Shown: positions 288 to 3,832 of the stretch, piece by piece | Position numbering within the stretch: position 1 is the stretch's first letter | How the letters are laid out: every line of letters begins with the position of its first letter | Assembly: GCA_905478665.1 (NCBI GenBank) | Contig: CAJQJL010000009.1 | Coordinates: 1 to 58,599 of the forward strand | DNA from: an uncultured Flavobacteriales bacterium | GTDB lineage: Bacteria > Bacteroidota > Bacteroidia > Flavobacteriales_D > Crocinitomicaceae | DNA length: 58,599 bases | Direction of reading: 5' to 3' | Translations under genes and position numbers: made by a program | Notes under the pieces: model-generated | The model's database searches: none | What the model was told of the DNA's origin: nothing | What the model saw: the letters and a program-made list of their open reading frames with translations, nothing else

Positions 288-1478
288 CTATAACAAGAGG
301 TTGTATTTGCTACTTGGCGGAAACAATAAGTCTAAAGCCCCATCTTTAAGTTTAAAAATTGGTCCTTTTTCTTTTGCTCCTCCCGTTGGTGTTCTCTTTA
401 TCAAGTGATCTAAGGTTATTATTCCCTGCTCAATTAAAAGGTCAAATTGAGCGATTATCGGTTTTTTAGTGTGCTCAACCAACGTATACTGAAAATGTTC
501 AGTACCACCAATATCAAGACTTTCGGCTGACACCCAAAATGTCTCTTTGTGTTTTTGCAATAGTCGTTCGTGAAGCTTTTCTAACCTCCATACTGCAAAA
601 TCACTAATTGCAACATCGTCTGAGCTTTCAATCAATTGATTTATGTCGTGATCCAATCTCAATGATAAACCCTGAGAATTACTCTTCAATGCAGACACTG
701 TGCAGTATAGTTTGAAATCACTCTCTCTATGGTATCCAAATGCCTCGAGAATTTCTTTAGATGTTTTAAATTGACTTAAATCCCAATCAGGAACTTGCGC
801 AAACAACGATTTTCGATTACTCCTTGTGCTTCTGAAAGATTTGAGCTCAATTCCTTTATAGTCTGGTTGCTTTGATGAATTGATATCAATCCCTAAAGCC
901 GTCTCCAAAGTTCTTCCAACCGAAGTGTCGGCATCAACCATAGAAGGGATAGGGCCATTTTTGGCTATTCTAATTAATAAAGCTAATAATTCATCAGAAA
1001 TTTCATTTTCCTTTGCGTCAATCTCAAAAACAATTTCCTTCAATGGATTTGATTCTTTGGAATTGATTAACTCCTGAACAGGTAGTTGAGTTAGGTTTAT
1101 CGAATAAATTTTCTTGTTCTGGTATATTAGACCAATAATGTCGTTGGCATTCGTATGTGAATTCAATCCGTATATCCAAATTCTTGGATCACCTCCGTTA
1201 TTCTTTGCTTTTGGTCGATACAAAGATGTTGTTGTTTCTATCGATTCATTCGATAAAATTATCTCTGAATCAATTTGAACTCCATTTTCTTTGGCACCTT
1301 GCCCTTGTAATCCATAATCATGGGCATTTACATTTCTCAAATATCTCCGAACTGGACCTGTTGCGTCCATAATGCCCTTTTTTAAAGCCGTTGCAGTCGG
1401 TTCAATCAAGGTCAGGGATACTGAATGTTCAGTTAAAGCTTTTAGATTAGAAGTCTCAACGGAAGTTAAATTTCTCAT
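288..1478 (-). CDS. MvaI/BcnI-family type II restriction endonuclease
   Basis: The 396-residue protein carries the PD-(D/E)XK variant of the MvaI/BcnI family. P205-D206-YKGI-E211-L-K213 matches the D-x4-E-x-K arrangement known for MvaI. A conserved G-R-T-L-E-T-A-L-G-I helix (about 188-197) precedes it. The C-terminal stretch GGAKEKGPIFKLKDG, about 366-380, also fits the family. MvaI itself is about 246 residues, so roughly 180 N-terminal residues are extra; similar extensions (YRP, then GDPRIW) occur in larger family members. Known members cut within CCWGG or CCSGG, but specificity here cannot be read from sequence. It lies 72 bp behind the methyltransferase on the same strand, so the protective enzyme is made first. 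The ATG at 1478 is the first start after an in-frame stop at 1488-1490. Confidence 0.85.
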   Translation of the reverse strand: MRNLTSVETSNLKALTEHSVSLTLIEPTATALKKGIMDATGPVRRYLRNVNAHDYGLQGQGAKENGVQIDSEIILSNESIETTTSLYRPKAKNNGGDPRIWIYGLNSHTNANDIIGLIYQNKKIYSINLTQLPVQELINSKESNPLKEIVFEIDAKENEISDELLALLIRIAKNGPIPSMVDADTSVGRTLETALGIDINSSKQPDYKGIELKSFRSTRSNRKSLFAQVPDWDLSQFKTSKEILEAFGYHRESDFKLYCTVSALKSNSQGLSLRLDHDINQLIESSDDVAISDFAVWRLEKLHERLLQKHKETFWVSAESLDIGGTEHFQYTLVEHTKKPIIAQFDLLIEQGIITLDHLIKRTPTGGAKEKGPIFKLKDGALDLLFPPSSKYNLLL

Positions 1479-1550: not shown

Positions 1551-3764
1551 CTATTTAATATTCTTTAGTATTTCGGAAGCCACAGCTCTTGCCATCAAAG
1601 GTGGCACCGCATTTCCAACAAGTGTATATTGCGGTACTTCCGTCTTTCTATTGTTCCCACCTGTTGATCTTTTTCCTTGAAAAACAAATGAATCATCGAA
1701 AGATTGAAGCCTTGCCATTTCACGAACCGTTAAGGCCCTAGGTGTATTGAAGTGAATATAATCATCTGCAATTGTCATGACTGTCGGACTTTGTCCATCA
1801 GCTTTAAGAACGTTGTAATTTCGCTTTTTTGAAGTTAGTCCACATTCCTCCAGTTTACATTGAGCTTTCTTATAGTCACCTTCTTGAAGAATAATATCAA
1901 GTCTTTTAATTACATCTTCACTTTGCTTGCTCGTTTTATGATTATGTAAAACATCAAACACCTTTTCATTCTTGTTTAAGGCTTCAGTACTCCTCACATA
2001 GAAAGGCTTAGTAGCATTTTGAAAGCGTCCATTTAGTCTACCTTCCCTACTCCATTCAGCAAATGTTTTTCCTGTTTTCTGGTTTGGCTTTCCGTCAATT
2101 GCTCGTTTGTCCAACAGGGCTTTCATTTTTTTAGCTGTTCCGTTATATTGTTTAGCAATGTCAACTTCCTCATAATGATGCGCTTCTTGGTCGTTTCCAA
2201 TAAAATCTAGATCGTACAAAGCTTCAAACACTGAAACCTTTTCATGCTCTTGAACTGTGCTCGGAATTTCTGAGATAAATTTCTGATCTTTTCTACACCC
2301 AATAAACAATACTCTTTCCCTGTTCTGAGGAACTCCGTAATTAGATGAGTTTGCAACAAATGGTTTTTCTATTTTATACAATCGTATTTCTTCGACTATG
2401 CATTGTAACTCTTTCACTTGCTGTTTATTGGTGAGGTTATTTACACTGTCCAATGTCTCATCAAAATTAGCTGTATATAGCTGAAGTGCACTAATAATAT
2501 CGTCGCACTCCTTTTGAAATTTGGTGTCAATTTCTAATCTATCAAAGGCATCCTTAATTTTTCGGATTATTTCTTCCGTATCAATTTCAGTGAGAAAATC
2601 GGTGAACGCATCCACGTAGAAATCATTATCAATATTACAGTAATCTTTCTCTTTGATAATATCTCTCTTCAACTTTTCCCATTGCTTATTTCTAATTAGA
2701 AGATTGAATCCATGACGCACCGTGGCAACCCGCTGATCCATCTTACTTGTCTGATAATCTACAATCTTTGGGGTTAGCAATCTAAACTTTGCTTCTACTG
2801 ACCTTATATAACTCTCCTTTGCCTCTTCTGCTTTTTGTTCATTGTATTGCTCTAATTCAATACGCTTAATTAAACAATCAATAATGAAACTATCTGCGCT
2901 ATTCGTTTTTTTCAACCCCTTTACGAAACTCGTTAACTTCGGAATCTCCTTCACATCAACGATTGAATTCATTTCCTTTAGAATGAGATCTTTGATTTTC
3001 CCCTTTTCTTTTGTCAAAATTCCTTTGACATTTTCCATTACAAAATACTTCGGCTGTAGCGTCTTTATTACTTCAAGGTAATGTGCGAAAAGGTCATCTT
3101 TCTTATCAAATTTCTTTCTTTTTCCTGCCAAACTAAAACTTTGACATGGAGGCCCTCCACAAACTACATCAACAGTCTTTCCTTTAATTTTTCCCAATAA
3201 ATTATCTAGAAAATCTGGTTCTGTAATATCCTGACATAAAAACTCTGCGTCAAGTCCGAGCTGATGATTATATCTAACTACATGCGTCAATTCACAATTT
3301 TCATTAATATCATTTGCCACTAAGAAATCGAAAAATTTGTCGTCTTCCTGAGCTTGCAAAAACCCTTCACTAAACCCTCCTGCTCCTGCAAAAAGATCAA
3401 TAAATGTGATGGGCTTTCCATAAAGAGACATTTGTTCACGCACAATATTCACATTCTGCGTTTCTTTGTATGAATTTACATAATCATTCAGCTTTGATTT
3501 TATCTCCTGATTAGTGTATGTTTTCTTTATTGGATCATTTAGTAACTCTTCTGCTCTCTCACGCAAGAAACCTAAATAATGGTTCTTTTCTGAACTTCTT
3601 TGGTCATAAGGCTTAATTGTTTGATTATCCTTATCAAAATCAGAAGTTCTTACCTTCTCCCCTGTTGAAACTTTAATTTGTTTCCCATTACTGTTGATTC
3701 GTAAATGGATTGGTGAACACCCCTTTTTATCTTCTTTATCAAGGTAGAAATTAATTGTAGCCAT
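1551..3764 (-). CDS. DNA (cytosine-5)-methyltransferase with N-terminal integrase Arm DNA-binding domain
   Basis: Residues 119-737 are a C5-cytosine methyltransferase. Visible motifs are I (FAGAGGF, 125-131), IV with the catalytic Cys in GGPPCQSFS (C207), VI (ENVKG, 244-248), VIII (QNRERV, 480-485), IX-like (RALTVREMARLQSF, 676-689) and X (YTLVGNAVPPLMARAVA, 713-729). About 230 charged residues (250-470) separate motifs VI and VIII, an unusually large insertion. Residues 1 to about 100 are not methyltransferase sequence. INFYLDK, then PIHLRINSNGKQI, then STGEKV match the Arm_DNA-bind_5 domain of Bacteroidota tyrosine recombinases. The core-binding and catalytic R-H-R-Y parts are absent. An internal ATG (M112, at 3431) would give a methyltransferase without the Arm domain. 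The gene pairs with the endonuclease at 288-1478 and presumably protects host DNA. Confidence 0.93.
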   Translation of the reverse strand: MATINFYLDKEDKKGCSPIHLRINSNGKQIKVSTGEKVRTSDFDKDNQTIKPYDQRSSEKNHYLGFLRERAEELLNDPIKKTYTNQEIKSKLNDYVNSYKETQNVNIVREQMSLYGKPITFIDLFAGAGGFSEGFLQAQEDDKFFDFLVANDINENCELTHVVRYNHQLGLDAEFLCQDITEPDFLDNLLGKIKGKTVDVVCGGPPCQSFSLAGKRKKFDKKDDLFAHYLEVIKTLQPKYFVMENVKGILTKEKGKIKDLILKEMNSIVDVKEIPKLTSFVKGLKKTNSADSFIIDCLIKRIELEQYNEQKAEEAKESYIRSVEAKFRLLTPKIVDYQTSKMDQRVATVRHGFNLLIRNKQWEKLKRDIIKEKDYCNIDNDFYVDAFTDFLTEIDTEEIIRKIKDAFDRLEIDTKFQKECDDIISALQLYTANFDETLDSVNNLTNKQQVKELQCIVEEIRLYKIEKPFVANSSNYGVPQNRERVLFIGCRKDQKFISEIPSTVQEHEKVSVFEALYDLDFIGNDQEAHHYEEVDIAKQYNGTAKKMKALLDKRAIDGKPNQKTGKTFAEWSREGRLNGRFQNATKPFYVRSTEALNKNEKVFDVLHNHKTSKQSEDVIKRLDIILQEGDYKKAQCKLEECGLTSKKRNYNVLKADGQSPTVMTIADDYIHFNTPRALTVREMARLQSFDDSFVFQGKRSTGGNNRKTEVPQYTLVGNAVPPLMARAVASEILKNIK

Positions 3765-3779
3765 ACATATTTATGTTTG

Positions 3780-3814
3780 CGGACGGTTTTACGGACACGG
3801 ACAAATTTACGGAC
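3780..3814. repeat. Four CGGAC direct repeats on the methyltransferase promoter
   Basis: CGGAC occurs at 3780-3784, 3792-3796, 3798-3802 and 3810-3814. Start-to-start spacings are 12, 6 and 12 bases. The surrounding bases repeat as well (TTTTAC/TTTAC before or after a unit). The cluster spans about three helical turns and covers the -7 box and early leader of the Arm-methyltransferase gene. It could be an arm-type binding site for that protein's own Arm domain; this is inference. Confidence 0.6.
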
Positions 3815-3832
3815 AGTTTTACTAAATTCCAA
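3802..3832 (-). promoter_or_regulatory. Probable promoter of the Arm-methyltransferase gene
   Basis: Read on the minus strand there is TTG (3832-3830), a 20-base spacer, then TAAATTTG (3809-3802). This fits the Bacteroidota promoter form with TTG near -33 and TAnnTTTG near -7. Transcription would begin near 3797, about 33 bases before the ATG at 3764. The -7 box lies inside the CGGAC repeat cluster. Confidence 0.5.

Follow-up and report, generated by a model that had tools for sequence, protein, structure and literature searches.

What is the DNA-binding domain of a recombinase doing at the front of a cytosine methyltransferase? The question is raised by a gene in a 58,599-nt contig of an uncultured Flavobacteriales bacterium, the whole of which is called the window below. 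We consider it likely that the protein is a self-regulating type II methyltransferase, whose Arm domain would bind an array of short repeats on its own promoter and repress the operon. The coding features of the locus are as follows.

1551..3764, minus strand: Arm-domain C5-methyltransferase, 737 aa (open reading frame and Pfam).
3504..3740, minus strand: Arm-DNA-bind_5 domain, about residues 9–87 (Pfam PF17293).
1557..3410, minus strand: C5-methyltransferase region, about residues 119–736, with the GGPPCQSFS and ENV motifs (Pfam and alignment).
2370..2963, minus strand: insertion of ~200 residues (about 268–465) that splits two PF00145 stretches and has no Pfam match (Pfam).
288..1478, minus strand: MvaI/BcnI-family restriction endonuclease, 396 aa, 72 nt downstream of the methyltransferase (PF15515, E = 4e-69).

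The preliminary description of this stretch had read the first 100 or so residues of the protein as an Arm domain, with the recombinase core missing and a full C5-methyltransferase behind it, and the Pfam searches bore this out. PF17293 matched residues 1–111 with an E-value of 4.1e-8 and 34.1 bits (34.2 in a repeat scan) and the whole 737-aa protein with an E-value of 1.6e-6 and 29.0 bits, both above the curated cut-off of 22.6 bits. The DNA_methylase family PF00145 matched in two stretches (E = 6e-54), the first covering residues 119–267, and TIGR00675 matched with an E-value of 9e-47. Residues P206, C207 and Q208 as well as E244, N245 and V246 are invariant in 21 fusion sequences; with these PCQ and ENV motifs and the PF00145 and TIGR00675 matches, the fusion is a C5-cytosine DNA methyltransferase. 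Pfam found no recombinase core-binding or catalytic domain in the 737 residues at E-values up to 1, and the protein does not qualify as a tyrosine recombinase. The ~200-residue insertion was also seen in the nine aligned sequences inspected, and an Arm-less plasmid relative (L082, 436 aa) is ~200 aa shorter across that stretch. Among solved structures, the Arm part searched alone matched none, and the Arm profile gave weak matches only, the best (E = 0.046) to a zinc-finger chimera. As methylase and endonuclease (PF15515 at 288–1478) are encoded together, the locus classes as a type II restriction-modification system.

The fusion might have been confined to this one genome and explained by an assembly join, a doubt raised when it was first described. 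We observed the same full-length fusion in 8 of 99 related genomes, in 9 of 399 genomes of the order (plus one cut by the contig start), in 11 of 395 genomes of the class and in 5 of 395 genomes across the phylum; the four sets overlap, and each includes the window's own genome. Together with a copy in Roseivirga seohaensis these make 22 full-length loci, all in Bacteroidota, and the doubt can be laid aside. The sequences of L073 and L074 do not differ anywhere in their 5.2-kb locus, which reduces the number of distinct sequences to 21; L074 was left out of the alignments, the tree and the column counts while still being one of the 22 loci, and the truncated L023 was left out. The other distinct fusions are 56–77% identical to that of the window. 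The genomes that share the stretch of L073 and L074 (G819 and G987) are assigned to separate genera and families, which points to either very recent transfer or contamination. L008 and L017 also come from different families and are near neighbours in the fusion tree, and therefore the module moves between hosts.

Outside these loci the searches were largely negative. Close relatives without the Arm domain were absent at E-values of 1e-60 (395 genomes), 1e-40 (399) and 1e-30 (395), apart from the partial matches L080 and L081. The viral contigs searched contained neither the fusion nor the TGTCCGT array described below, and the phages searched gave no Arm match. Among plasmid records 473 matched the methyltransferase, none over 80% of its length, and the plasmids searched had neither an Arm match nor the array. 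As for other Arm fusions, the long reading frames of L113 and L114 begin, by eye, like unrelated genes, and by eye no other domain is visible in the available sequence of 11 short-ORF Arm loci (L115–L125); the short frames of L116, L117, L119 and L125 reach the contig end, and a recombinase-like frame stands behind those of L121, L122 and L124.

An in-frame ATG at Met112 had been thought to permit a second form of the protein without the Arm domain. The methionine is indeed present in the window's protein. Among the 21 distinct fusions, however, it is kept at column 112 in only 2; 6 have a methionine at column 107 and one at column 114, giving nine in all, and the remaining 12 have none within columns 101–122. 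The short form is therefore not a feature of the family, and an alternative start was rejected on these counts.

In the stretch before the start codon the following features were found.

3779..3815, minus strand: operator-like array of four direct repeats at offsets 0, 12, 18 and 30 (sequence comparison).
3815–3809, 3803–3797 and 3797–3791, minus strand: array repeats TGTCCGT; 3785–3779, minus strand: array repeat CGTCCGC.
3802..3809, minus strand: predicted −7 promoter box TAAATTTG, which lies between repeats 1 and 2 and overlaps both (consensus from the excerpted texts of PMC6847099 and PMC9723704).
3830..3832, minus strand: possible −33 element TTG, with a 20-nt spacer to the −7 box.

TGTCCGT direct repeats precede the start codon in 21 of the 22 loci, with the four-site layout in 20. 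L018 has the first two repeats only, and L076 keeps the Arm domain and has no array in the 129 nt upstream before the contig end. Within the 20 loci the third repeat carries A at its fourth base in 8, and the fourth repeat most often begins with C (12). The four-site score was 25–28 of 28 in these 20 loci, against a maximum of 20 in 4400 dinucleotide shuffles; the scores of L018 (17) and L076 (16) do not exceed those of their own shuffles. Mean pairwise identity (190 pairs) was 87% over the array and 35% over the preceding 50 nt.

That the array is conserved and its flanks are not bears on the idea, put forward in the preliminary description, that the Arm domain is a relic of the insertion that brought the module; in a variant of it, the array would be an attachment site for movement of the module. 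A decaying relic would fit a module that passes between host families, as with the tree neighbours L008 and L017, and in this same best-conditioned pair (dS 0.62) the Arm part does change faster, with a dN of 0.043 against 0.019 for the methyltransferase part and a dN/dS of 0.069 against 0.035. The protein, however, has no integrase core. Of 12 pairs, 5 allowed dN/dS of the Arm part to be computed, with values of 0.019–0.107; four of these have a high dS (1.7–3.1), near saturation, and one a dS well below. Moreover, the 21 fusions agree without exception at 17 of their first 114 alignment columns. Relative to the methyltransferase part, the Arm part evolves at most about two times faster, far more slowly than a relic would; although dS is high in most of the dN/dS pairs, we read the Arm part as in use and under purifying selection. 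We regard a relic or an attachment site as very improbable.

How rare is the array elsewhere? Among the 99 genomes scanned, all eight with the fusion have TGTCCGT-N5-TGTCCG upstream of the methyltransferase, and 7 of the 91 genomes lacking the fusion have it at some other place (Fisher p = 4e-8). One fusion genome, G067, has a second pair, inside another gene. Of the eight pair sites away from a methyltransferase, seven lie inside reading frames and one (L039) between them, and no GGPPCQ/A-type methyltransferase motif was seen in the frames around these eight. The window's 3.9-Mb genome holds one exact pair, and its matches with up to three mismatches number 242, against 287 for a reversed control, giving no excess. 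These counts speak against another earlier suggestion, that the Arm domain targets methylation to certain places in the genome. Arm domains do bind accessory DNA sites in integrases, according to the excerpt of PMC8138268; with a single exact pair and near matches below the control, such guidance seems extremely unlikely.

The array follows the methyltransferase rather than its neighbours. Directly after the methyltransferase, 17 of the 22 loci have a gene related to the window's endonuclease, as judged from its N-terminal sequence, and Pfam confirmed MvaI_BcnI in the copies scanned (the window's, L009, L016 and L018). In G127 two genes lie between methyltransferase and endonuclease, and in G524 the endonuclease is further downstream. 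L010 and L077 have in its place a 193-aa protein and a GmrSD_N (DUF262)-like gene (by Pfam in L010, by eye in L077), and L078 has, by eye, a convergent gene of another kind, like one beside the truncated L023. L010, L077 and L078 all retain the array. No TGTCCG pair occurs in the partial Arm-less matches L080 and L081 or in the plasmid relative L082. Six of the 13 genomes with an MvaI/BcnI match have it without the fusion, and no 12-bp TGTCCG pair was found in the available DNA of these six loci, a weak control because a contig end lies at or close to the beginning of those in G627 and G686. Taken together, the changed partners and the missing pair indicate that the array goes with the Arm-methyltransferase and not with the endonuclease. 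In L009 (G067:C20:7279-7944) a stop interrupts the endonuclease frame, and methyltransferase and array are intact.

Several observations concern the partner genes themselves. Genes beside the methyltransferase in L128 (G127), L127 (G038) and L077 resemble DUF262/GmrSD_N proteins; by Pfam this match has an E-value of 1.7e-22 in L010 and of 7e-5, below the cut-off, in L017. About 165 residues of the window's endonuclease (288–1478) precede the MvaI_BcnI domain without a Pfam match, and by eye G686 has a comparable N-terminal part, there next to another C5-methyltransferase (L159). CCGG is strongly under-represented in the window (1–58599), with 16 found and 65 expected, and CCWGG mildly so (0.60); across loci of other genomes totalling 260 kb, the value for CCGG is 0.88. 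Its depletion is uneven in four other fusion loci, and therefore CCGG was rejected as a candidate and no recognition site is claimed.

The position of the array relative to the predicted promoter points to its probable function. In the excerpts of PMC6847099 and PMC9723704, the −7 element of Bacteroidota promoters is given as TTTG/TANNTTTG. We placed the −7 box at −12 to −5 following these excerpts, which puts the predicted transcript start near 3797 and the window's four repeats at −18 to −12, −6 to +1, +1 to +7 and +13 to +19. TAnnTTTG lies between repeats 1 and 2, their edges included, in 20 of 21 loci, the exception being L009 with TAAAATTG, and 12 of the 21 (11 of 20 distinct) have a TTG separated from the box by 19 or 20 nt. 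The third position of the box is G in 5 of 20 loci, and G is almost absent there from the Flavobacterium johnsoniae promoters covered by the excerpt of PMC6847099. On sequence grounds alone, then, an operator-like array overlaps the fusion's own predicted promoter, as in dual-function repressors; the N-terminal helix-turn-helix of such repressors is not found by Pfam, and an Arm domain takes its place. Between the methyltransferase and the window's endonuclease, the 72-nt gap is long enough to hold a second promoter.

Within the array, sites 1–2 and sites 3–4 form two pairs, the members of each being 12 bp apart. The 6-bp shift between the two pairs amounts to roughly half a helical turn, so that molecules bound to them may sit on opposite faces of the DNA. 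Two such 12-bp pairs resemble two operators, and C proteins activate at low dose and repress at high dose, as given in the excerpt of PMC12707154. The Arm domain could then bind the array mainly as an activator or a dose-dependent switch, for instance with sites 1–2 activating and 3–4 repressing. We think this unlikely: all four sites cover the predicted −7 box, the start and the leader in the manner of a repressor, and none lies upstream of the promoter.

Do recombinases with the same domain have similar arrays? A profile of the 21 fusion N-termini found Arm domains in other reading frames, mostly of about 400–480 aa, with E-values down to 1.5e-12 in a 432-aa frame (L092) and 3.1e-14 in a 118-aa frame (L091). 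Arm and Phage_integrase domains were both present in all eight such frames scanned with Pfam. The 118-aa frame of L091, 1483-1839(−), has the Arm domain alone, with a tRNA-Lys gene in the same locus, and is perhaps an integrase remnant. From 107 Arm frames without a methyltransferase, the 94 with at least 150 aa and at least 120 nt upstream were tested. A perfect 9-base direct repeat of period 11 (nine cases) or 12 (21 cases) lies within 150 nt upstream in 30 of the 94, against 3 of 1880 shuffles and none of 58 other genes in the same loci; the other perfect periods within 7–30 were 13, 20, 21 and 27 (one each) and 22 (two). At 8 of 9 matches the counts were 48 of 94 integrases, 24 of 1880 shuffles and 2 of 58 other genes, which leaves 46 of the 94 with no 11–12-bp repeat even at this level.

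The repeat sequences differ from one integrase to another, and similarity of the Arm domains tracks similarity of the repeats (rho 0.17, with 1 of 2000 permutations as high). The integrases are not independent, 20 of the 1128 compared pairs being more than 60% identical, and the link is also seen among pairs below 60%. These upstream 11–12-bp repeats may be arm-type sites that can be read from sequence. GTCC-type repeats like those of the methyltransferase occur as ATTTGTCCCCT in L109 and AATCCGTCCCCC in L111; as a motif common to Arm integrases TGTCCGT was rejected, no array being present at the 23 integrase loci checked. Likeness of the repeats to TTGTCCGTA goes only weakly with likeness of the Arm domains among the 48 integrases (rho 0.24, p = 0.10). 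Integrase repeats overlap a TAnnTTTG box in 4 of 48 cases, no excess over the 8.5% of random spans, and such a box lies up to 40 nt downstream or up to 10 nt upstream of the repeats in 13 of 48. In L109, L111, L190, L203, L214 and L197, period 11/12 repeats stand shortly before a TATATTTG box. The 12-bp tandem layout is therefore common to both groups, and the motif and its promoter position are the methyltransferase's own.

One could still suppose that a host-encoded protein binds the array and that the Arm domain has some other role, for the integrase repeats in related hosts differ from TGTCCGT and binding by the Arm domain is itself predicted from sequence. A host regulator sits poorly, however, with an exact pair that occurs once in the window's genome, lies at the methyltransferase in all eight fusion genomes and is kept across host families and partner genes. 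The methyltransferase is the only shared gene seen in the available flanks, and direct repeats of period 12 are the very layout found upstream of Arm integrases. We judge a host protein to be quite improbable.

Self-repression by the methyltransferase remains the reading we prefer. It builds on what is directly observed, namely the fusion and its conservation, the array and its co-occurrence with the fusion, the overlap with the promoter consensus and the integrase-like repeat layout. The Arm domain would bind the four TGTCCGT repeats, which cover the predicted promoter from about −18 to +19, and methyltransferase that has accumulated would block RNA polymerase there. Methylase and endonuclease probably share one transcript, and the operon would be strongly expressed in a newly entered cell and later held low. 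The earlier suggestion that the Arm domain binds the gene's own promoter, replacing a separate control protein, gains strong support from the promoter array and the integrase repeat layout. Several points count against self-repression: L076 without an array, L018 with two repeats, the 23 integrase loci without a TGTCCGT array, the weak link of integrase repeat likeness to Arm likeness, the 46 of 94 integrases without an 11–12-bp repeat, integrase repeats that overlap the −7 box no more than random spans do, the G in 5 of 20 boxes, and the room for a second promoter ahead of the endonuclease.

How would a repressor and its operator come together? Conceivably, and we put this forward tentatively, many Arm integrases of Bacteroidota read their own upstream 11–12-bp repeats, and the methyltransferase acquired an integrase gene's entire 5′ end, promoter with arm-type repeats and Arm-coding segment, in one step; repressor and operator would therefore have arrived together. 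If many Arm integrases do read such repeats, the Arm domain would be a transcription-regulator module in its own right. The results further suggest that for many Bacteroidota integrases the upstream repeats reveal where the arm sites lie, and the array can serve at once as a candidate site to which an Arm domain of the PF17293 family would bind. If self-repression holds, a DNA-targeting domain of recombinases would have been recruited as the transcriptional repressor of a restriction-modification system. Neither an Arm DNA-binding domain together with methyltransferase and restriction-modification, nor 'Arm-DNA-bind' together with 'methyltransferase', was found in the openly licensed papers searched, which is weak evidence of absence.

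Regulators joined to restriction enzymes have precedents. Endonuclease-regulator fusions reportedly have a helix-turn-helix controller fused to the endonuclease. Methyltransferases with an N-terminal helix-turn-helix over the promoter repress their own gene, as described in the excerpts of PMC3874152 and PMC12707154. The EcoRII, SsoII, Ecl18kI, ScrFI and MspI methyltransferases likewise carry an additional DNA-binding domain at the N-terminus, and their operator covers their own promoter; they use a helix-turn-helix (excerpt of PMC3874152), whereas the fusion uses an Arm domain and a 12/6/12 direct-repeat array. The Ecl18kI genes diverge, in the same excerpt, while methylase and endonuclease of the window stand in tandem, and M.EcoRII represses only with its sites methylated (PMC12707154, in part). 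C (controller) proteins exert autogenous control of restriction-modification operons (same partial source), as we propose for the fusion, but each is a separate helix-turn-helix protein, and the proposed regulator of the fusion is part of the methyltransferase. Tyrosine recombinases of the IntCTnDOT type share the Arm family (PF17293) and, in about half of the tested genes, tandem direct repeats upstream; in the fusion the methyltransferase replaces their core-binding and catalytic domains. A parallel on the integrase side is KplE1 IntS, which represses its own promoter, overlapping its arm-type sites (PMC2951348, in part); it is an E. coli prophage integrase, also under TorI control, and has no methyltransferase. 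Self-repressing methyltransferase systems are already known, and it is the borrowed Arm domain and the operator architecture that appear to be new.
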